Source: Caldithrix abyssi DSM 13497 (lineage in GTDB: Bacteria > Calditrichota > Calditrichia > Calditrichales > Calditrichaceae). From it: a DNA stretch of 64,000 nt. Below the pieces are notes generated by a model that saw only the letters and a program-made list of their open reading frames with translations, did no database searches and was not told the DNA's origin. Shown one piece after another: positions 9,108 through 63,576 of the stretch. Position 1 is the stretch's first letter; each line of letters starts with the position of its first letter. The DNA lies in NCBI RefSeq assembly GCF_001886815.1, contig NZ_CP018099.1, positions 3,966,501-4,030,500 on the forward strand, in the 5' to 3' direction. The translations under genes were made by a program, and so were the position numbers.

Positions 9108-9283
9108 TGAACCTTGATTAATATGATTACAGGATTAACTTGATTTTTTTTCTCGTGAAAGTTCACACTCAATTTTAAGGCGAAATTTTGTAAGTACAAA
9201 AAGCAAATCATGGAAATCTCTAAATTAAGTAAATCATGGTTCAAACTTCATTGGTCGCCGCCTGTCATTTATTCCCGCCCTGG
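9108..9283 (+). repeat. Partial copy of the 416-bp repeat, cut by the IS
   Basis: This stretch (GAACCTTGATTAATATGATT, then GTTCACACTCAATTTTAA, ending GTCATTTATTCCCGC) matches the second half of the unit tandemly repeated at 17981-18974. The insertion sequence at 9284 interrupts or abuts it. Confidence 0.75.
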
Positions 9284-10989
9284 AGGCTGTTGCAAATTCA
9301 GTTTGAGTAAAATTCAAAAAATTTGTAAATTCTGGGCGACAGATAAAACAAGTAATAACAAAGGAATTCCATGAGTTTTATTACTTATAATCGCTCACAA
9401 ATGAATCTCTTTGGCTATAGTGTGGAAGATTTTGCCAGAGACGATCCAAAGAGTCGATTTGTAGTGGAGTTGGTTTCGCGCCTTGATTTAAGTGCACTTT
9501 ATTCCCGTTATAGTTCGCAAGGCGGTGATTCTTATGCCCCAGACATGATGCTTGCCTTATGGTTTTATGCTTATAGTAACGGCATTACCAGCACCCGTAA
9601 GCTGGAGGAATTGTGTAAATATGATACGCGCTACATTTATATCACTGGGAATCAGCATCCGGATCATAGTACATTAAGTCGTTTTCGCAAGGCACATTTG
9701 GATTTATTAGACCAATATTTTGTAGAGATACTTTTAATTGCCCAGGCCGAAGGCATAAGTAGTTTCAACCAGATAGCCATAGATGGCACGAAAATCAAAG
9801 CGCACAGCAGTAAGCGTCATGGCTACACTGAGGATCAATTAGACAAACGTATAGAGAAGTTAAGAGCAGAGATCAAGCAATACATGCAGCGCTGTAATTT
9901 TGTAGAACAGGGGGCCACGGATGAATTAGATTTAGAAACTCTTCGAGCGGAGAAAGAACGGCTTGAGCGCTTAGAGAAAGAGATATTAGAACGTAAAGCC
10001 CAATTGAAAGAGCGTAAGAAACAGCTCAAATCAGAACATCGTTCAAGACATCAAATAAATGTAAAAGAGCCGGATGCCCGCATGATGCCTTCGGTGGATG
10101 GGCCGGGTTATAACGCACAATTAGGCGTAGATATGTCCAGTCATTTAATTGTAGCCCATGAAGTGGTAAGCCAGCCCAACGACCAGGGTCAATTCATACC
10201 GATTCAAGAACAAGTAGAGAAGAATCTTGGTTCAGATGATAAGCGATCTTACACGGCCGATTCCGGTTATCACAATAGCACAGACCTAAAAGAATTGGAA
10301 GAAAAGCAGATTGATGCCGTAATAGCCGATCCCCAGTTATCCAATCGTTCGATAAAGGAGACACCAACCTCCAAGGAAGAATTGCAAAAAGAAGAAAGAA
10401 AACTAAAACGAAGTGATTTTGTGTATCATGAACAGGGAGATTACTATGAATGTCCGACGGGTAAGAAGCTTTTTCCAGTTGAGAGGAATAGCGAACGGAT
10501 CGTATATCGTTCCAATGATTGTCAGGACTGTCCCTTAATTAATTTATGCATTTCCAGTAAAAAGAAAGTTAAGCAAATCCATCGTTCAGTTAATGAGAGT
10601 TATTGCGAACGTATGGCGAAAAAGTTACAAACTTCAGCGGCGCAGGAACGACTAAAAAAGCGTTCGGTGACAGTTGAACCTGTTTTTGGTAACTTGAAGC
10701 ATAATTTAGGCTATCGTGGATTTTCCTTATCTGGTCTTAATAATGTTCGTAGTGAATTTACGTTAATGTGTATTGGGCATAATATTAATGTTCTATTTAA
10801 AAATATGTTAGGGAAACGTTTAGCAGCGTTTATAACAGCATCACAAGAAAAAGATGATCTATTAATTTTATTTTCAAAGAATATTTTGGCGTTTTTAATT
10901 CTATATTTTGCCCAACGCTTAAGAATGAGAAAAAATTATCAATATCGGAGAATATAAGCATTAATTCCTCCCCCCCATGCAACAGCCTC
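9284..10989 (+). mobile_element. IS1182-type insertion sequence, copy 1
   Basis: 1706 bp bounded by inverted ends AGGCTGTTGCA / TGCAACAGCCT(C) and flanked by the 5-bp direct repeat CCTGG (9279-9283 and 10990-10994). A second copy of equal length and nearly identical sequence lies at 52104-53809 with its own different 5-bp duplication, which fixes the boundaries. It carries one transposase gene and inserted into or beside a dispersed repeat rather than a gene. Confidence 0.95.
9371..10957 (+). CDS. IS1182-family transposase
   Basis: 528 aa. The N-terminal ~110 residues form the DUF772-type domain (QGGDSYAPDMMLALWFYAYS) that recruits ends in IS1182-like transposases. A charged coiled coil at ~155-225 is inserted in the catalytic core. 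Likely DDE residues are D138 (AIDGTKIKA), D297 (TADSGYH) and E436 (VEPVFGNLKHN). A cysteine cluster (CPTGKK, CQDCPLINLC) sits at ~360-395, typical of the family. The start is preceded by AAGGAATTCC. It is intact and its translation is identical to the copy at 52191, so it is probably functional. Confidence 0.95.
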   Translation: MSFITYNRSQMNLFGYSVEDFARDDPKSRFVVELVSRLDLSALYSRYSSQGGDSYAPDMMLALWFYAYSNGITSTRKLEELCKYDTRYIYITGNQHPDHSTLSRFRKAHLDLLDQYFVEILLIAQAEGISSFNQIAIDGTKIKAHSSKRHGYTEDQLDKRIEKLRAEIKQYMQRCNFVEQGATDELDLETLRAEKERLERLEKEILERKAQLKERKKQLKSEHRSRHQINVKEPDARMMPSVDGPGYNAQLGVDMSSHLIVAHEVVSQPNDQGQFIPIQEQVEKNLGSDDKRSYTADSGYHNSTDLKELEEKQIDAVIADPQLSNRSIKETPTSKEELQKEERKLKRSDFVYHEQGDYYECPTGKKLFPVERNSERIVYRSNDCQDCPLINLCISSKKKVKQIHRSVNESYCERMAKKLQTSAAQERLKKRSVTVEPVFGNLKHNLGYRGFSLSGLNNVRSEFTLMCIGHNINVLFKNMLGKRLAAFITASQEKDDLLILFSKNILAFLILYFAQRLRMRKNYQYRRI

Positions 10990-11106
10990 CCTGGCTGGAG
11001 AGAGCCGTGAAAAAATTACATATCTCATCAGAGTCGTCAAAAAAAAGAAATTTTCCCTTTAGCCGATTATTTACTAAATTCAGGCAGTTTAAACACGGAG
11101 TTAAAA

Positions 11107-23000: not shown

Positions 23001-24692
23001 GTCAATCGTCCGCCGGTTTTACAACTCATTGCAGATCAAACCATCGACGAAAATCAGCCCTGGCAATTAGCCGTAACAGCCACAGACCCGGACAAAGAAG
23101 ATGAAGGTAAATTACATTTTAGCACGACGAATCTACCCCAGGGCATGACCTTTGACTCCACCAACGCTGTCTTTTCCTGGACGCCCACCTTTGAACAATC
23201 GGGCGTTTATTCGGCTATCACGGTTAAAGTCACCGACAGCGGCAATTTATCCGATCAAAAGCAGTTCAGCATTACAGTGAATCATGTGAACCGCGCGCCA
23301 TCTCTGGAGCCAATCCCCCCGATTCAGGGCGTGGAAAATTCGCCGATCACCTTTCAGTTAAAAGGCAGCGATCCGGATAAAGAGGATGACGGCAAGCTGG
23401 TTTACAGTTGCGCCAACCTGCCGGAAGGGGCCGTGCTGGACGCGCAGAGCGGAGCCTTTAGCTGGACGCCAAACTTTTTGCAGGCCGGCGCGTACAATTT
23501 GCAGTTTAAAGTAACGGACAGCGGCGGCTTATTTGCCGAACAGAGCGTATCGATGACCATCGATGACTTGAATCGCCCACCGCAATTACAGCCCATTGAA
23601 GCGAAAAAAGTTTTTGAAAATCAAACCCTCAGTTTTAAAGTAACTGGCAGCGATGAAGACACCGACAACACCCTGACTTACTCGGCGGAAGGTTTACCCA
23701 CAGGCGCGCAATTTGATGCGGCCAGTCAAATGTTTACCTGGAGGCCAACCTTTGAGCAGGCCGGAAACTACCAGGTTACCTTTAAACTGACTGACGGTAA
23801 AGAAGAGACCAGCGTTTCGGTGCCCATTGAAGTGGTGAATGTCAATCGTCCGCCTCAGTTCACCGCTTTGACCGATCAGCAGGTTAAAGAAAATGAACGC
23901 CTGCGCTTTACGGTAACGGCCAGCGATCCGGATGCGGGAACTACGCTTCAGCTGCAGGCGCAAAATCTGCCGGAAGGAGCGCAATTTAACGCCGACAATG
24001 GGACGTTCGAGTGGACGCCAACGTTTGAACAGGCCGGTGTTTACGCTGTAACCTTTAGCGTAAGCGACGGCGACACCACCGTCAGCAAAGAAATAAAAAT
24101 CACCGTACAAAACGTCAATCGCCCGCCGGTGTTTAATGAAATCGGCGCGCAGCAGGTTAAAGAAAACGAAGAACTGCGTTTTACCATCTCAGCATCAGAC
24201 CCCGATGCCGGCACGGAGTTAAAATTTAGCGCGCAAAATCTGCCGGACGGCGCAAACTTTGATCCCGCCACGCAAACCTTTGTCTGGAAGCCGAATTTCG
24301 ATCAGCAGGGCGAACACCAGGTAGTCTTTACCGTCAGCGACGGCGAAAGCGAAGTAAAACAAACCGTTGTCATAAGCGTGCAAAATGTTAATCGACCGCC
24401 AACGATCAATGGACCGACCAGCAACGAAGCGCAGGCAGGAGAAGCAATTCAGCTGCGGTTTAACGGAAGCGATCCGGATGGCGACGCCTTAAAGTTCTCT
24501 GGCGATAATCTGCCCTCCGGCGCTAAAATAGACGATTCAGGGAATTTTACCTGGACGCCAGACGACGGCCAGGTGGGCGCGCACAGCTTTGTGATAAAAG
24601 TCAGCGACGGGCAGGAAGAAGCCTCCATTAATGTAAAGATCGACGTCAAACCTAAACCTCAGCCCGCGCCGGCAGACACAACAGGAAATTAG
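20043..24692 (+). CDS. Giant secreted surface protein: LVIVD propeller plus 13 tandem Ig/cadherin-like domains
   Basis: 1549 aa, with AAGGAG upstream and a signal peptide ending near 'HIQAQ'. Residues ~45-320 hold at least five LVIVD-type blades (for example 'YLFVVDEYVGVQVLDISDP', 'YAYAANGPAGLTVLDVSQP'), a probable beta-propeller. From ~333 to the end, 13 copies of a ~93-97-residue domain follow, each opening with 'NRPP' or a variant and carrying 'VDENQ.LTF', 'GSDPDKED', 'LPEGA.FDP' and 'W.PTFEQSGVY'. This matches putative Ig (He_PIG) / cadherin-like repeats, and the acidic DPDxED loops suggest calcium binding. The tail is a short Pro-rich stretch (KPKPQPAPADTTGN) with no C-terminal sorting domain. 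It is probably an adhesin or matrix protein. Repeats 2-8 are closest to each other and 10-12 form a second subtype, suggesting expansion by duplication. Confidence 0.9.
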   Translation: MKARNLLKKIIIFVLALNWTHIQAQERVAAEFISKFPPPKAIDGTPYMDGLKQLSIKDHYLFVVDEYVGVQVLDISDPENLQEVAVIYPENLAPTQNVYLTDSLAFMSCRLDGVWIIDIANPAAPQKISRIRPRAESYWVTANLPYVYIAEADSGVMIYDVQQPKSPQLVGRIQTGGFIWGVGLIQNYLYLIDKRKGLLVYDVTDPTAPLATGGQLEALKYTRSIFFEDNYAYAANGPAGLTVLDVSQPAKPKHIRTVNLKGYAYSSYKSGSTVFVGNDVLRELQFVDVQNPREPFLIGKYKSNSHIYYALKKDIYVYTAADSATLVLRYNRPPVLADIQDQVVDEDQTLTFQVKAFDPDDDAIFYSLSFLPEGAQFDSISGVFSWRPTFEQSGVYGPIVITAHERTQSQLTDSDTIRITVNHVNRPPTIAEIPDYEVDENQTLTFTIPEGEDPDKEDAGKLTYAAENLPEGATFDPQTRVFTWKPTYEQSGEYPIDFTVYDPAGAFAREATVITVHHVDRKPTLAEVPDQTVHEDELLTFTLHGSDPDKEDQNALSYAAYNLPEGATFDPATATFSWKPTFEQSGVYKDLLFVFTAGALSDSITVNITVTHVNRPPVIAAVGDKTVDENQWLQFTVSGEDPDREDFGRLQITAENLPEGATFDPDSNLFKWKPTFEQSGVYPDVLFIIHDPSGLTDTAAVTITVNHVNRPPALAEIPAKVIDENQLLTFELQGSDPDREDQGKLIYTADGLPEGALLEGNQFSWTPTYDQSGVYKITFTVSDGRLSDSQSTTITVNHVNRPPVMAELAPQTVDENQPLTFTVAGSDPDKEDTGKLTLNALNLPEGAVFDPASGKFNWTPTFEQSGVYQVSFTIQDPAGLSDTLTVPITVNHVNRTPVFAEQPPQVVDENQPLNVQLIPATDPDKEDEGKLKYTALNLPQGASFDPNTLTLSWTPTYEQSGVYTVTIQVTDGEFTVEQPLQITVNHVNRPPVLQLIADQTIDENQPWQLAVTATDPDKEDEGKLHFSTTNLPQGMTFDSTNAVFSWTPTFEQSGVYSAITVKVTDSGNLSDQKQFSITVNHVNRAPSLEPIPPIQGVENSPITFQLKGSDPDKEDDGKLVYSCANLPEGAVLDAQSGAFSWTPNFLQAGAYNLQFKVTDSGGLFAEQSVSMTIDDLNRPPQLQPIEAKKVFENQTLSFKVTGSDEDTDNTLTYSAEGLPTGAQFDAASQMFTWRPTFEQAGNYQVTFKLTDGKEETSVSVPIEVVNVNRPPQFTALTDQQVKENERLRFTVTASDPDAGTTLQLQAQNLPEGAQFNADNGTFEWTPTFEQAGVYAVTFSVSDGDTTVSKEIKITVQNVNRPPVFNEIGAQQVKENEELRFTISASDPDAGTELKFSAQNLPDGANFDPATQTFVWKPNFDQQGEHQVVFTVSDGESEVKQTVVISVQNVNRPPTINGPTSNEAQAGEAIQLRFNGSDPDGDALKFSGDNLPSGAKIDDSGNFTWTPDDGQVGAHSFVIKVSDGQEEASINVKIDVKPKPQPAPADTTGN

Positions 24693-24880: not shown

Positions 24881-24886
24881 TGCTGA

Positions 24887-25060
24887 GGGTGTCTCAAAAG
24901 CGACATCTAATGAAAAATTATACAAAGACAGGAAAAATCTTACAGTAGCCCTCACCCCCTGCCCCTCTCTCCCGATTTTCGGGAGAAGGGGGAATTAAAG
25001 GGGGTGAGGGAAAGAAAAACTTTATAAAAATACATTGTCTTTGACTTTTGGGACAGCCCC
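24887..25060. repeat. ~174-bp palindromic MITE-like repeat, complete copy
   Basis: The ends are related inverted repeats: GGGTGTCTCAAAAG on the left and CTTTTGGGACAGCCCC on the right. The centre is a strong stem, 'CCCTCACCCCC' / 'GGGGGTGAGGG' enclosing 'CTCCCGATTTTCGGGAG'. The same element in opposite orientation, split by a transposon, occupies 59138-59225 and 63460-63556. No coding capacity. Confidence 0.85.
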
Positions 25061-25067
25061 AGTAAGC

Positions 25068-25175
25068 GCCGTGTGCGAGGGCAATGGAAATTATCTTTAA
25101 TTTAAAACATTCTTTGCGCCCTTTGTGACTTCTTTGCGCTCTTGGTGGCTCGTTTTTTTGCAGCGGCTGCGCTGC
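25068..25175 (+). repeat. Dispersed mosaic repeat, partial copy (CTTTGTGACTTCTTTGCGCT module)
   Basis: Carries the 'GAGGGCAATGGAAATTA' and 'CCCTTTGTGACTTCTTTGCG' modules and 'GCGGCTGCGCTGCCCT', as in the copies at 8751 and 48317. The remainder up to 25320 shows only the AAAGGTG ribosome-binding site of the next gene. Confidence 0.6.
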
Positions 25176-25320
25176 CCTGGTTTGTAACAGAGACTTCTTT
25201 CCGGTCTGGCTTACCAATCAACAATCTTTTTTCTTACATCTTTACTTCCTGTTTGCACATTCATTTGACCCGCGCTAAAAATTGCCTAAATTTTAAAAAA
25301 ACAATCAAAAGGTGAAAACA

Positions 25321-48741: not shown

Positions 48742-48861
48742 TTGCTTTGTAAAATCTAATTTCTAAATATTCATCTACTCCAGCTTTTGGGAAAGCCCCG
48801 GAAATGAAAAAGACATTTTTTAGAGCGCGCTCATAACAAATTCGCTTTGCATTGTTTAGCA

Positions 48862-51617: not shown

Positions 51618-52103
51618 TTTATTTTACCATGCAAACCTTTATGCTTTGTTGAACATCCCTGGCCCGCAGTACCACAAAGTAAATGCCCGCCGGCAAAGGC
51701 TGCCCCGCGTCGCTGACGCCGTCCCACTGCAGACGATATTGCGCGTTGCCCGTCAATGCGCCGCTAAACAACGTGCGAACTTTTTGGCCCTGTATATCGA
51801 AGATGTTGATGGACAGATTAGCCTCGCCTTGCTCAAGCTGCGGTACGTCAAATGTAATGGTGGTGGAAGGATTGAAGGGATTGGGTTGATTGGGATAAAG
51901 CCGGAAGTTTTTAATCACCGATGTCGAAACAGCGGCATTTAGATCGCCCTGCGTAACCTGAACTTTAATCGGCCCGCGGAACGTGCGCTGACCTTTTAAA
52001 TCCACATCGGCCAATTTGTAATAGTAAGCTTGACCGGCGGCGACAGAATAATCCTCATACTGATAGTCGTGCGCATGGCTGCTGTTGATCTGTCCCTTTA
52101 AAG

Positions 52104-53809
52104 AGGCTGTTGCAAATTCAGTTTGAGTAAAATTCAAAAAATTTGTAAATTCTGGGCGACAGATAAAACAAGTAATAACAAAGGAATTCCATGAGTTTTA
52201 TTACTTATAATCGCTCACAAATGAATCTCTTTGGCTATAGTGTGGAAGATTTTGCCAGAGACGATCCAAAGAGTCGATTTGTAGTGGAGTTGGTTTCGCG
52301 CCTTGATTTAAGTGCACTTTATTCCCGTTATAGTTCACAAGGCGGTGATTCTTATGCCCCAGACATGATGCTTGCCTTATGGTTTTATGCTTATAGTAAC
52401 GGCATTACCAGCACCCGTAAGCTGGAGGAATTGTGTAAATATGATACGCGCTACATTTATATCACTGGGAATCAGCATCCGGATCATAGTACATTAAGTC
52501 GTTTTCGCAAGGCACATTTGGATTTATTAGACCAATATTTTGTAGAGATACTTTTAATTGCCCAGGCCGAAGGCATAAGTAGTTTCAACCAGATAGCCAT
52601 AGATGGCACGAAAATCAAAGCGCACAGCAGTAAGCGTCATGGCTACACTGAGGATCAATTAGACAAACGTATAGAGAAGTTAAGAGCAGAGATCAAGCAA
52701 TACATGCAGCGCTGTAATTTTGTAGAACAGGGGGCCACGGATGAATTAGATTTAGAAACTCTTCGAGCGGAGAAAGAACGGCTTGAGCGCTTAGAGAAAG
52801 AGATATTAGAACGTAAAGCCCAATTGAAAGAGCGTAAGAAACAGCTCAAATCAGAACACCGTTCAAGACATCAAATAAATGTAAAAGAGCCGGATGCCCG
52901 CATGATGCCTTCGGTGGATGGACCGGGCTATAACGCACAATTAGGCGTAGATATGTCCAGTCATTTAATAGTAGCTCATGAAGTCGTAAGCCAGCCCAAC
53001 GACCAGGGTCAATTCATACCGATTCAAGAACAAGTAGAGAAGAATCTTGGTTCAGATGATAAGCGATCTTACACGGCCGATTCCGGTTATCACAATAGCA
53101 CAGACCTAAAAGAATTGGAAGAAAAGCAGATTGATGCCGTAATAGCCGATCCCCAGTTATCCAATCGTTCGATAAAGGAGACACCAACCTCCAAGGAAGA
53201 ATTGCAAAAAGAAGAAAGAAAACTAAAACGAAGTGATTTTGTGTATCATGAACAGGGAGATTACTATGAATGTCCGACGGGTAAGAAGCTTTTTCCAGTT
53301 GAGAGGAATAGCGAACGGATCGTATATCGTTCCAATGATTGTCAGGACTGTCCCTTAATTAATTTATGTATTTCCAGTAAAAAGAAAGTTAAGCAAATCC
53401 ATCGTTCAGTTAATGAGAGTTATTGCGAACGTATGGCGAAAAAGTTACAAACTTCAGCGGCGCAGGAACGACTAAAGAAGCGTTCGGTGACAGTTGAACC
53501 TGTTTTTGGTAACTTGAAGCATAATTTAGGCTATCGTGGATTTTCCTTATCTGGTCTTAATAATGTTCGTAGTGAATTTACGTTAATGTGTATTGGGCAT
53601 AATATTAATGTTCTATTTAAAAATATGTTAGGGAAACGTTTAGCAGCGTTTATAACAGCATCACAAGAAAAAGATGATCTATTAATTTTATTTTCAAAGA
53701 ATATTTTGGCGTTTTTAATTCTATATTTTGCCCAACGCTTAAGAATGAGAAAAAATTATCAATATCGGAGAATATAAGCATTAATTCCTCCCCCCCATGC
53801 AACAGCCTC
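52104..53809 (+). mobile_element. IS1182-type insertion sequence, copy 2
   Basis: 1706 bp with the same ends as copy 1. The flanking 5-bp direct repeat is TAAAG (52099-52103 and 53810-53814). It is inserted in the coding part of the secreted Lamin-tail protein, antisense to it. Confidence 0.96.
52191..53777 (+). CDS. IS1182-family transposase (copy 2)
   Basis: 528 aa, protein identical to the transposase at 9371. By eye about nine base differences exist between the two copies and all are silent, four or five of them clustered near 52920-53000. Intact, with the same DDE residues, D138, D297 and E436. Probably active. Confidence 0.95.
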   Translation: MSFITYNRSQMNLFGYSVEDFARDDPKSRFVVELVSRLDLSALYSRYSSQGGDSYAPDMMLALWFYAYSNGITSTRKLEELCKYDTRYIYITGNQHPDHSTLSRFRKAHLDLLDQYFVEILLIAQAEGISSFNQIAIDGTKIKAHSSKRHGYTEDQLDKRIEKLRAEIKQYMQRCNFVEQGATDELDLETLRAEKERLERLEKEILERKAQLKERKKQLKSEHRSRHQINVKEPDARMMPSVDGPGYNAQLGVDMSSHLIVAHEVVSQPNDQGQFIPIQEQVEKNLGSDDKRSYTADSGYHNSTDLKELEEKQIDAVIADPQLSNRSIKETPTSKEELQKEERKLKRSDFVYHEQGDYYECPTGKKLFPVERNSERIVYRSNDCQDCPLINLCISSKKKVKQIHRSVNESYCERMAKKLQTSAAQERLKKRSVTVEPVFGNLKHNLGYRGFSLSGLNNVRSEFTLMCIGHNINVLFKNMLGKRLAAFITASQEKDDLLILFSKNILAFLILYFAQRLRMRKNYQYRRI

Positions 53810-54682
53810 TAAAGCGGGATTGCTGCGATAGCTGTCGAGTAGTTGAAAGCCCGTAGAGGACATTAACGAACGATAGATTTCGAACCCCAGGTTTTCCACT
53901 TCGCTTTCTGTGCGCCACTGAAGAAGCACATGGCCATGCTGTACAACGGCCCGGAAGGAAGAGAGGGTAACGGGGAGGGATTGGTCGAGGCCATATTTTC
54001 TACCAGGAGAGGCTTGCGGATCAGTAAGAGTTACCGTGTGATCAACAGACCAGTCAACAGTACCCGTTATGGTCGGGTGGAAAGACCAGCTCCCGCTATA
54101 ATCCGGATTACGTGATTGTGACTGGCCGGCTATCCAGCTATTAGATATTGTAACTTCCGTACCTACTAAAGTTGCACCGGTGGTAAAATCAGCGGGTAAA
54201 ACTCCTGTGCCCCATTTGACACTAATATACAGCCCATTGGTATTCTTTAACCCGATGACATCGTCACTATTACTTAACCTTATACCAGCTGGAGTTGATG
54301 TAACAAGGTTTCCGCTACCAGGATTGAAATTCGATACATCCGCTCCATACATATAAACGACAATAGACTTTCCCGGGTTAATTGAAGTTGGATCAGGGAA
54401 AATAAGATAGGTAGTTGTATTATCCGATAAAGTCCACCCCCCTATGTTTATTGTTTGATCCGATGAATTAACTATCTCTACAAACTCATCTTTGTCGCTT
54501 GTGGAGCTTATGATTCCATCTGCATTGTAATCAAACGCTGAGCCATTTGCACAAATTTCATTTAGGGTGATTCCTGACGTATAGGTTGTTACATTATCAT
54601 TTCTTAAATAACCCTGAGCAAATAATAAAGAATTGAAAAAAATAATACACACCAATATTTTTAAAATAACTAAATAACGCAT

Positions 54683-59105: not shown

Positions 59106-59242
59106 AAAAAAGTTAAGCAATTAGGCACAATTTCTCCGGGGCTGTCCCAAAAGTCAAAGACAATGTATTTTTATAAATTTTTTTCTTTCCCTCACCCCCT
59201 TTAATTCCCCCTCTCCCGATTTTCGCTGGACCTGGCACACAC

Positions 59243-59271
59243 TTGACACAGGGGGAATAATTTGTTAAATT
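59243..59271 (+). promoter_or_regulatory. Promoter of the DruA-like/transposase gene
   Basis: -35 TTGACA (59243-59248), exact consensus, 17-base spacer, -10 TAAATT (59266-59271). The ATG at 59278 is only 6 bases after the -10, so the mRNA would be leaderless or nearly so. Confidence 0.6.
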
Positions 59272-59475
59272 TTCTACATGCAAATATATGGGAAAATTTT
59301 TAGCGAACCAATATTAAAACGTATTAATGCGATCATTGCCCGGCAGCCGCAGATATCTCGTAGGAAATTATCACGAGAGGTATGCGAACTGATGGACTGG
59401 AAATCTCCCAATGGGAAATTCCAGGAGATGAGCTGCCGTAAAGCCTTATTAGAGCTGGATCGGCGCGGTTTAATC

Positions 59476-61360
59476 CCCAGTTTGACAGTTAACGCCAAAT
59501 TTTTCAAAGCCAAATCAAAAAAAACATATAATTAAGTTTCTCTGTTTCAATTTCTTTGTAGTCTATGCAGGCGTGCTTTTTTTATTTGCTATCAAATCGT
59601 TTTATTATTATATTCATTCTATGTTTGTTAAGGTAAGTCGATCCAAAAGAAATAACAAAGTCCATGAGACTTTACAAATCGCTGAGTCCTACAGAGACTC
59701 AAATGGAAAAGTACGCCATCGAATCTTGCTGCATTTAGGCCCTACCGACAAATTCATCAAAAAAGACGTAGACACGCTTATCAACGGACTTTTAAGGGCT
59801 AAGGGGTTAACTTTACAGGACTTAGATAGCAATATTGATAATGTCAAGGCCTTCGGTCAAATCTGGGCGCTTGTCCATTTATGGAAAGAGCTTAAAATGA
59901 GCCAGATTATTGCCAGGCAAAAGGAAAAAAGCGGAATAAAGTTTGATCTTGAAGCTCATTTAAAAAGTCTGATATTTAACCGCCTGGATGATCCTTCTTC
60001 CAAACTAAAACTACTCACCTGGTTAGAAACCGTTTATATTCCGGGTATCAACAAAGACGACATTCGTTATGAGTATCTTTTAAGAGCGATGGATTTTCTA
60101 ATAGCTCATAAGGAAAAGATTGAAACCCAACTTGCTAATCGTTTACTAGATCTGTTTAATCAGGATCTAAAGGTTTGTTTTTATGATTTAACATCAAGCT
60201 ACTTTGAAGCCGAAAACTCATTGGTAGAAGGCGATATTCGTCAGTTTGGTTATAGTCGTGACCACCGCGGAGATAGAGAACAGATCGTAATTGGCGTGGT
60301 GATGACCGGAGATGGTATTCCTATAGCCCATTACGTCTTCCCTGGCAATAAGGCTGATCGCTCTACCTTGCAAGAGATGCTCAATGATATTCGCAGGCGA
60401 TTTAAGGTAAAAGATATCCAGCTGGTGGCAGACAAAGGTTTATTAAGCAATGACAATCTCTGGCATTTAATCCAACAAGGTTATGAGTTTATTCTTGGAG
60501 AGAGTGTTCGTCAGAGCAAGGATGCCAAATCGGTTATAAAAGAAGCCAATGCGCATAAAGAGGCGACTGGTGAGACGATCTATGAGCGCCTAACGGAGCG
60601 TGAAATCAAGTCAAAAGATGGTAAAAAGGAAAAGATAAAACTTCGTTATGTGGCCAGTTACAATGCCGCCACGGCATTAAAGCGCTATAAAAATCGCATC
60701 AATCGTATTAATGAATTTTTAGAGCTGTCAGAAGAGATTAAGAAAAAGGAAATAAACACAGAAGATAAATATCATCAAATAAAGAGTGTATTATCAAGAA
60801 AACGTTTAAGTCGTTTCTTTAATGTTGAATTAACAGAAGATACGATAGAGATTCATAAGCAAGATGAGGTATTATCAGAAGAAGAAAAGAGCGACGGTTG
60901 GTTTATAGTGATAAGCAATGCTCATGACCTGAGTAAATCAGAACTCATAGCGCGCTATAAAGATTTAAAATATGTGGAGCATGGTTTTTACGAATTAAAG
61001 CATAGTTTGAATTTACGTCCCAATTTTCATTGGACAGAGAAGCGTATCAGGGCTCATGTGATGGTATGTTTTCTTGCATTCCAGATGGCGGTATTGTTTG
61101 AGAAGCGTTTGAGTGGCATAAAATTAAGTTGGCAGCGTGCTATGGAGAGCCTGCGTCGAGTCGTGGTTGTAGAATGGGAAAATGAAGGGAGACGTCGTAA
61201 AGGATTATCCAGAGTGCATGGCGAACAATTGGAAATATTTCAGGAGATAGGCAGCAGCAAGCCAACGCTTTTATCTTTGTAGTGACAACTTAACGAAAAT
61301 GAAATTAAACTAACTTAATAATAATAAAGGAATTATGTTCCATACAACTGTCAAACTCAA
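59476..61360 (+). mobile_element. IS1634-type insertion sequence nested in the transposase gene
   Basis: 1885 bp. Subterminal inverted repeats AGTTTGACAGTT / AACTGTCAAACT lie 3 bases inside each end. The flanking 8-bp direct repeat is GTTTAATC (59468-59475 and 61361-61368). Removal of the IS and one repeat restores the host frame '...RRGLI-KLPERKKS...'. Confidence 0.88.
59621..61282 (+). CDS. IS1634-family transposase
   Basis: 553 aa from ATG 59621, which gives the typical 'MFVKVSRSKRNNKVHETLQI' N-terminus; an in-frame ATG at 59573 adds 16 hydrophobic residues and is less likely. Probable DDE residues are D189 (CFYDLTSSYFE), D271 (LVADKGLLSND) and E453 (YVEHGFYELKHSLNLRP). The C-terminal 'RIRAHVMVCFLAFQM' is characteristic. 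The gene is intact and probably functional; it is transcribed in the same direction as the host transposase. Confidence 0.93.
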   Translation: MFVKVSRSKRNNKVHETLQIAESYRDSNGKVRHRILLHLGPTDKFIKKDVDTLINGLLRAKGLTLQDLDSNIDNVKAFGQIWALVHLWKELKMSQIIARQKEKSGIKFDLEAHLKSLIFNRLDDPSSKLKLLTWLETVYIPGINKDDIRYEYLLRAMDFLIAHKEKIETQLANRLLDLFNQDLKVCFYDLTSSYFEAENSLVEGDIRQFGYSRDHRGDREQIVIGVVMTGDGIPIAHYVFPGNKADRSTLQEMLNDIRRRFKVKDIQLVADKGLLSNDNLWHLIQQGYEFILGESVRQSKDAKSVIKEANAHKEATGETIYERLTEREIKSKDGKKEKIKLRYVASYNAATALKRYKNRINRINEFLELSEEIKKKEINTEDKYHQIKSVLSRKRLSRFFNVELTEDTIEIHKQDEVLSEEEKSDGWFIVISNAHDLSKSELIARYKDLKYVEHGFYELKHSLNLRPNFHWTEKRIRAHVMVCFLAFQMAVLFEKRLSGIKLSWQRAMESLRRVVVVEWENEGRRRKGLSRVHGEQLEIFQEIGSSKPTLLSL

Positions 61361-63576
61361 GTTTAATCAAATTACCAGAACGAAAAAAAAGCTATGCTTT
61401 TGAAAAAAAGAAAAAGCGTAAGCTTGATGTTCCAATCGCCTCCATTGAAGGCCATTTATCGGTTTTAGGCGAAATTGTAATCGAGCCGATCAAAAGCCGC
61501 TACAGCAAGGATTCGCGCGCATGGTTTCAGTTAATAGAGAATTTCCATTACCTTAAAAGCGCAAAACTTTGTGGCGCTCAGATTCGCTATATTGTAAAAA
61601 GCGAGAAGTATGGCTATATTGGCGCTTTAGGCTTTAGTTCAGCGACTTATAAATTACGAGCCAGGGATGCCTATATTGGCTGGAGCGAAAAGGCGCGAAG
61701 GGAGAATATCCAGTATGTGATCAGTAATGATCGTTTTTTGATCGTACCTACGGTTAAGGTCAAGAATCTGGCTTCATTTCTGTTGAGTAAAGCCTTGCAG
61801 CGTATTGGAACCGATTGGGAGAGTCGTTATGGTTATCGCCCGGTTTTGGTGGAAAGTTATGTGGATTCTAGTGTTTTCAAAGGCATCGGTTACCTGGCTT
61901 CCAACTGGCTTTATGTAGGAAATACCAGCGGTCGTCGTGACGGTATCGCCAAAAAGGTATTTCTTTATCCATTGCAAAGGAACTGGCGAAAGATTTTGTG
62001 TCAGGAGAGTGCGGACGGTTTAGGCCAAGGACGATTAATCAAAGACTCATCGAATTGGGCGGAGCGGGAATTTGGCAGCATTCGCTTATATGACAATCGT
62101 CTCAAACAGCGTTTGTACGCCATAGCGGATGACTTTTACAACAAGCCGCAGGCCAACATTCCGGAGGCCTGTGGTGGTAAGGCGCGCACGATGGGCGCCT
62201 ATCGATTTTTTCAAAACGAGAAGGTAACCATGGATATTATTTTAGATGCACATACCGAGGCGACGATAGATCGCATAAAAGAACACAAGGTGGTTTTAGC
62301 GCCTCAGGACACGACCATTTTAGACTACAGCACGCATCCCATGACCAAAGACTTGGGGCCGACAAGCCATATAGATCACCAGAGCATTGGCTTGATTTTA
62401 CATGATACATTGGCCTTTAGTGAGGATGGCACGCCGTTAGGCGTATTGGATGCCCAGGTATGGGCTCGTGATCCGAAGGATCGAGGCAAGACGCGTCGTC
62501 GTAAGGAATTACCCATTGAGCAAAAAGAGAGTATGAAATGGTTACGTAGTTATCGCCGGGTCAACGAGATAGCTAAGTTATGTCCGGAGACGCTTATCGT
62601 AAGCGTGGGCGATCGAGAGGCGGATATCTACGAATTATTTCATGAGGCTCAAAGGAAAGATAGCAAGGCAGGACTTTTGGTACGCGTGGGCAAGCGCCGC
62701 AATCGCAAAGTGGCCGGAATTGATCTGTGGGATTACATGTCCAGTCAAGAAGAGCGCGGTCAATTTCAAATTCATGTTCCTCGTAGGGGCAATATCAGGG
62801 CTCGTGAGGCCAAGATGTCCTTGCGTTATTCGTCGATAGACTTAGAACCGCCGAAACGATTTTCGTCCTCTAAGCCCATTAAGGTGTGGGCTGTTTATAT
62901 CCGAGAGGTCGATCCGCCAGCTGATATTAAGAGTCCAATAGAGTGGATGTTATTGACCACGGTGTCGGTAGAGAATTTTACTGATGCCTATCAACGAGTG
63001 CAGTGGTACACTCGTCGTTGGGGTATCGAGATATATCATCGAACGCTCAAGAGCGGCTGCCGCATAAAAGATCGTCAATTAGGCAGTGCGGATCGTTTAG
63101 AGACGGCCTTAGCCGTGGATATGGTTGTAGCCTGGCGCATTTATCATATGACCATGTTAGGTCGTGAAATACCGGATTCGCCGGCGAGCGTATTTTTCAA
63201 AGAAGAGGAATGGAAAGCGTTGTATTGCTATGTGCATAAGACGCCCATAGCGCCGGAGGAGCCGATGAGTTTACGAGAAGCCATCCGTATGGTAGGTCAG
63301 ATCGGAGGCCATTTAGGCAGAAAGAGTGATGGCGAGCCTGGCACAGTAACGCTCTGGCGAGGAATACAGCGATTGGATACGGCAACCGAGATGTATATTA
63401 TTTTTACTTCAAGCCGAGACGGCCCATAACCCACGGTGCTATGTGTGGGTAAAGGTCAGCGATTTTCGGGAGAGGGGGGCAGGGGGTGAGGGCTAATGTA
63501 AAGTTTTCCATGTATTTAAATAAATATACATTTAATTTCTCTTTTGAGACACCCCCGGCTGGGGGATGAGTTTTAA

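Follow-up and report, generated by a model that had tools for sequence, protein, structure and literature searches.

The window analysed here is a 64,000-nucleotide stretch of the Caldithrix abyssi DSM 13497 genome (contig NZ_CP018099.1, forward-strand positions 3,966,501 to 4,030,500). Between an open reading frame (ORF) of 1549 aa that ends at 24692 and another of 1599 aa that starts at 25312, there lies a non-coding palindromic element, which an earlier note had placed at 24887-25060 with a length of about 174 bp. Here, the right end holds, but the left end had been set two bases short, and the element covers 24885-25060 (176 bp). This copy, a second one, and the related features of the window are as follows.

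24885..25060, plus strand: intact copy of the putative MITE, 176 bp, both 16-bp ends present
24885..24900, plus strand: left terminal repeat GAGGGTGTCTCAAAAG, 13/16 identical to the end of the 2008-bp IS described below
25045..25060, minus strand: right terminal repeat, reading GGGGCTGTCCCAAAAG, 16/16 identical to the same IS end
24949..25010, no strand: central G/C-rich hairpin CCCTCACCCCC...GGGGGTGAGGG with inner stem CTCCCGATTTTCGGGAG, from DNA folding
59138..59225, minus strand: right half of the second copy, from sequence match
59226..63459, plus strand: 4234-bp insert at the hairpin apex of the second copy, which it splits; carries two transposase ORFs
59573-61282: IS1634-family ORF inside the insert
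61717-63429: IS4/Tn5-like ORF inside the insert
59217-59225 and 63460-63468: 9-bp duplication CGATTTTCG bordering the insert
63460..63556, minus strand: left half of the second copy, adjoining the host repeat CCGGCTGGGGGATGAGTTTT
48784..48799, minus strand: lone degenerate terminal end GGGGCTTTCCCAAAAG
9273-10999 and 52103-53821: second IS1182-family IS, ends GAGGCTGTTGCA, IS1182 profile 385 bits

When folded as DNA, the window copy forms a single long hairpin, imperfectly paired and G/C-rich at the core, and its energy of -41.2 kcal/mol compares with -18.1 kcal/mol for shuffled sequences (z -8.2, with none of 200 shuffles equally good). This confirms that a palindromic element is present, far above chance, and bears out the earlier claim that the palindrome spans the full length. 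Although a 99-aa minus-strand ORF (24918-25217) overlaps the copy, it bears no sign of being a real gene, and with a simple ORF caller none of 38 genomic copies falls within an ORF of at least 120 aa, in agreement with the proposed lack of coding. The end pattern GGGNTGTCYCAAAAG, with at most one mismatch, occurs five times in the window against 0.07 expected. The second window copy does lie in the opposite orientation, as had been noticed, but it is not intact, being split by the 4234-bp insert. As a side observation, residues 2-73 of the IS4/Tn5-like ORF in that insert match the DruA profile PF14236 at 33 bits (cut-off 27).

To place the element in its genome, a single contig of 4,978,541 bp was searched. 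The exact end pattern gave 85 matches and its reversed-pattern control none; likewise, a pattern for the right half with at most two mismatches gave 61 matches and a control of none. Both ends were present in 38 elements of 148-180 bp, a number that is not a full census because the roughly 385 kb of genome stretches read were fetched for holding a match. Further copies with fixed ends, on whose existence the earlier note had made its reading depend, are thus abundant. With BLAST, 36 matches cover most of the window copy, at pairwise identities of 80-99% (median 88%). Partial copies were also read (23 right-hand and 20 left-hand), some of which are two halves of one interrupted copy. Moreover, AACCGTTNNAACGGTT occurs 38 times in the genome, and 38 copies of an 18-nt palindrome have been reported for C. 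abyssi (PMC5317091), where the passages concerned mention the 18-nt palindrome and not a 176-bp MITE.

These ends are shared by a full-length IS, for which the earlier note had suggested a search. The same 16-bp ends occur as eight pairs spaced exactly 2008 bp apart, the eight IS copies are mutually 98.3-100% identical, and a 586-aa frame is open in all eight; a ninth copy is interrupted, with 3304 bp between its ends. The 586-aa transposase belongs to the IS1182 family (profile NF033551, 447.3 bits against a cut-off of 270). Compared with the IS, the window element matches at 16 of 16 positions in the right end and 13 of 16 in the left, and over 38 bp at the right end the two are 84% identical. 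The presence of an IS with the same ends and an open transposase frame supports the proposal of a non-autonomous element that depends on a transposase encoded elsewhere. By sequence comparison, then, classification as a MITE of the IS1182 family is supported, and the transposase of the 2008-bp IS is the probable agent of its movement.

Rather than target duplications, what marks the insertion sites is complementarity between the flanks. None of the 46 full-length elements (38 MITE and 8 IS) is bordered by a flush direct repeat of 4-20 bp, although a target duplication would be usual for a MITE, and the listing of flanking duplications proposed earlier is therefore empty. When boundaries are moved by up to 3 bp, three of the 46 sites read as a 6-bp CCCGGG duplication, and with uneven shifts one reads as 5-bp CCGGG. 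We read these as palindromic stubs; a boundary 3 bp further in is disfavoured because the terminal G's are conserved at unrelated sites. The 46 elements were then divided by a filter for the host repeat described below, which caught 19 and left 27. Of the 27 unfiltered sites, three resemble one another in the right flank, and 4646237 belongs to the host repeat after all. Over the first six positions, 71 of 162 flank positions in this group are complementary, compared with a shuffled mean of 44.9, and one of 20,000 shuffles gave as many. At the nearest three positions, all are complementary at eight sites, two at eight, one at five, and none at six. In sequence terms, the 27 sites would thus fit inverted-repeat targets of the kind expected for hairpin replacement, for which no consensus in the primary sequence is required, with at least two of the nearest three positions complementary at 16 of 27, but 11 of 27 (one or none) show little complementarity. 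Short palindromes, for example AACG/CGTT, make up several of the other sites. The 19 filtered insertions give no complementarity excess (53/114 against a shuffled mean of 61.9), because their flanks are nearly alike.

A complex intergenic repeat starting AAACTCATCCCCCAG is a landing site of both the MITE and the IS, and it has 61 matches in the genome with at most one mismatch (control none). Sorted by eye, these 61 rows include 27 unoccupied copies that carry the hairpin CCCCTTCTCTTT-AAAA-AAGAGAAGGGG or something close to it; six of the 27 have a shorter right arm and one a degenerate left arm. As several are locally clustered (five at 4767998-4769611 and three at 4784074-4784921) or paired (1533287/1533677 and 4306399/4306696), these 27 are not all independent. 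In 21 other copies, an end of the MITE or IS occupies the repeat, and in 20 of them the hairpin is no longer visible. The exception is an IS at 4646237, which sits at the 3' foot of an intact hairpin with a possible 2-bp duplication. Two partial hairpins and 11 others, among them three that hold no element and have at most a very short hairpin, make up the remainder. As the empty sites are paralogous repeat copies and not one locus before and after insertion, the comparison indicates apparent loss of the target hairpin in 20 of 21 occupied copies. Because the occupants comprise the MITE in both orientations as well as the IS, several of the insertions are independent. Around the window copy, the alignments with three genus relatives reach at most 413 bp (65-93% identity), and no row listed spans the insertion site.

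The remnants of the stem mostly match on the two sides of the occupant. The left stub has kept 0, 2, or 3 C of the stem, and the right stub has the same number of G at 15 of the 18 insertions counted; by chance, the shuffle mean is 7.9, with as many in 19 of 100,000 shuffles. These lengths were counted by hand for 18 of the 20 hairpin-less occupied copies (omitting 2754461 and 4538703, and ignoring an extra C at two), and the variant-flank sites 778747, 1842397, and 3013566, together with 4825996 and its foreign right side, were also left uncounted.

Taken together, we propose, at a probability of about 0.8, that the element is an IS1182-family MITE moved in trans by the transposase of the 2008-bp IS, and that it replaces DNA hairpins at insertion. 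Here, the transposase would act on the 16-bp ends of the MITE and mobilise it into inverted repeats, which would be recognised as a cruciform or hairpin. Instead of a staggered, target-duplicating cut, the two strands of the stem would be cut where they face each other or close by, so that the tip is removed, presumably in the same step as the insertion, while the outer stem survives as a short, complementary stub on either side. The hairpin-shaped MITE would then take over the position of the target hairpin. An IS1272-like route would be the simplest account of this movement, and for insertions of the IS1272 type a target duplication is not expected.

Alternatively, this may be an ordinary MITE whose IS prefers the centre of short palindromes (e.g., CCCGGG) and inserts without deletion, the hairpin-less copies belonging to a separate and perhaps older form of the repeat. 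The many CCC-element-GGG junctions, three of them readable as a CCCGGG duplication with a moved boundary, would suit this, as would the short palindromes at several other sites. So would three unoccupied copies with no hairpin or a very short one (403149, 535808, and 4699194), since at some sites the hairpin could have been missing before the element arrived. However, these three compare with 27 unoccupied copies that have the hairpin, and the stubs vary in length with left and right changing together, as expected if one stem is cut at different heights. Moreover, the target hairpins of IS1272 were lost in the before/after pairs described in passages of PMC5678879. We regard insertion without deletion as unlikely.

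Far less probable still is that a bidirectional terminator or an RNA-stability hairpin has been spread by selection and not by transposition. Besides the strong fold, this could draw on the neighbouring genes: these were callable for 35 of 38 copies (13 convergent, 18 tandem, and 4 divergent), and 44 of the 70 gene ends facing a copy are 3' ends (one-sided p 0.02, with a crude ORF caller). Yet the bias is weak: it may reflect a preference for hairpins at gene ends or selection that keeps copies out of promoter regions, and terminator hairpins serving as targets would produce it too. The 16-bp ends are fixed, common to the IS, and conserved outside the hairpin. A terminator scan found no site in the element, neither strand has a T-run after the stem, and Rfam gave no match in the window at the gathering threshold; the sequence thus lends no support to the strong bidirectional terminator that the earlier note had offered as its other option.

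The MITE hairpin is itself a target for other elements. In the second window copy, a Tn5-like IS breaks it with the 9-bp duplication, and the junction sequences recur at 435485, 2103997, and 2414770; elsewhere, an IS110-family element (1911143-1912826; Pfam DEDD_Tnp_IS110, 94 bits) lies inside the hairpin. Two copies of the 2008-bp IS border on remnants of the MITE, one at MITE position 80 (with one base in between) and the other at position 104; in the folded MITE, these two positions are paired. The IS possibly inserts into the MITE hairpin as well, and this is only suggestive because each of the two has one MITE half. We also noticed chimeras, whose MITE hairpin gives way, from about positions 75/112 on, to a different inverted sequence (TTCCAAGAAAAAGAG...). 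Among the inspected halves, these comprise ten right (415637, 499525, 774807, 1575002, 4357751, 4381940, 4460656, 4482126, 4492611, and 2797878) and two left (1533826 and 4935076).

Among 39 other genomes, matches to the MITE were found in six (7/40 with its own), and these were to the core hairpin or right end only; the IS transposase is matched in three of the 39 (4/40 with its own). In a collection of genome contigs, the transposase has two loci, each with 39% identity in its best segment. A sister species (G001) contains five elements of 343-434 bp with ends GGGGCTGTCCCAAAAG (one change in one copy) and GGGGTTGTCTCAAAAG, whose interior differs from that of the MITE and whose nearest four flank positions are complementary at 3, 3, 1, 1, and 2. 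In another genome (G037), a pair of similar ends stands 1964 bp apart around a related transposase, with a flank complementarity of 1/4. Such partial complementarity in both genomes counts against the hairpin-replacement reading. As for the core, a 21-mer with at most one mismatch is found in 6 of 40 genomes of the phylum, counting its own. At 12 loci of a further genome (G008, L201-L212), it sits in a different MITE, for which both ends were found at nine; of these nine, five have an exact 9-bp direct repeat and two more match at 8 of 9 positions. A closely similar core (exactly GGGGGAATTAAAGGGGGTGAG in most copies) accordingly occurs in two MITE families that are unrelated in their ends and differ in how they treat the target. 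Near contig ends in the same genome, the half MITEs of L205 and L212 are joined at the apex to TGCAACAGCCT(C), which is the end sequence of the second C. abyssi IS1182-type IS. Searches of plasmids gave no match to the core hairpin at E 0.001. In viral contigs, it has 12 exact 18-mer stretches, most in unrelated-looking contexts, and the 16-bp end has 12 stretches; in the DNA available around these, no second end pointing towards the first lies within 4 kb.

Closest to the C. abyssi element in published work are IS1272 and TnSha1 of staphylococci, which are IS1182-family elements and, from the passages describing them, likewise combine 16-bp terminal repeats and an IS1182-family transposase with hairpin targets that are partly or wholly lost, and with insertion without duplication (PMC5678879, PMC4923244). 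Thus, in before/after genome pairs for IS1272, inverted repeats of 24, 30, and 22 bp were replaced without duplication (PMC5678879), and for TnSha1 part of the hairpin was deleted by blunt stem cuts (PMC4923244). However, as presented there, these are an autonomous element or a gene-bearing composite, whereas in C. abyssi it is mostly a gene-less 176-bp hairpin in another phylum. MITEPye1 of Paracoccus yeei resembles the C. abyssi MITE in its IS1182-family-like terminal repeats and long stem-loop, but is described with 1-3 chromosomal copies and direct repeats at its borders (PMC11578231). Similarly, the ISMac2-related MITEs of Methanosarcina acetivorans (160 and 169 bp) are assigned to an IS1182-family IS, but have 14 and 7 copies, and the passages on them mention no target hairpins; the last figures in their table rows, 26, 4 and 25, 0, are probably the sizes of repeat and duplication (PMC3852290). 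Within C. abyssi, the second IS1182-family IS has 30 near-full-length transposase matches in the genome and 5 more in two pieces, and its transposase is 28-29% identical to that of the 2008-bp IS in full-length rows. Its targets are also palindromic, of the type TCCCGC-GCGGGA, but unlike the 2008-bp IS it has an apparent 4-bp duplication inside this palindrome. While IS1182-type MITEs are already known, as is hairpin replacement for IS1272, we found no paper joining the two in searches of open-licence full texts, the broader of which were covered by their 20 best matches.

We further consider, as a tentative extension that probably goes too far, that one hairpin is exchanged for another, with a mobile hairpin spreading by substituting for resident intergenic hairpins and then becoming the next target. 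If true, the hairpins of a genome, including terminators and RNA-stability elements, would be turned over and not interrupted, and a past exchange of this kind would have left its trace in the similar core that two MITE families share despite their unrelated ends. Under hairpin replacement as proposed above, intergenic RNA hairpins would be edited irreversibly, because excision cannot restore a lost one. In any case, C. abyssi offers within one genome, and far from the staphylococci, a natural series of many insertions into one hairpin repeat. As filled and empty sites stand side by side in it, the hairpin-replacing mechanism of IS1182-type transposases becomes testable, and the series suggests that gene-less passengers can use hairpin replacement as well.
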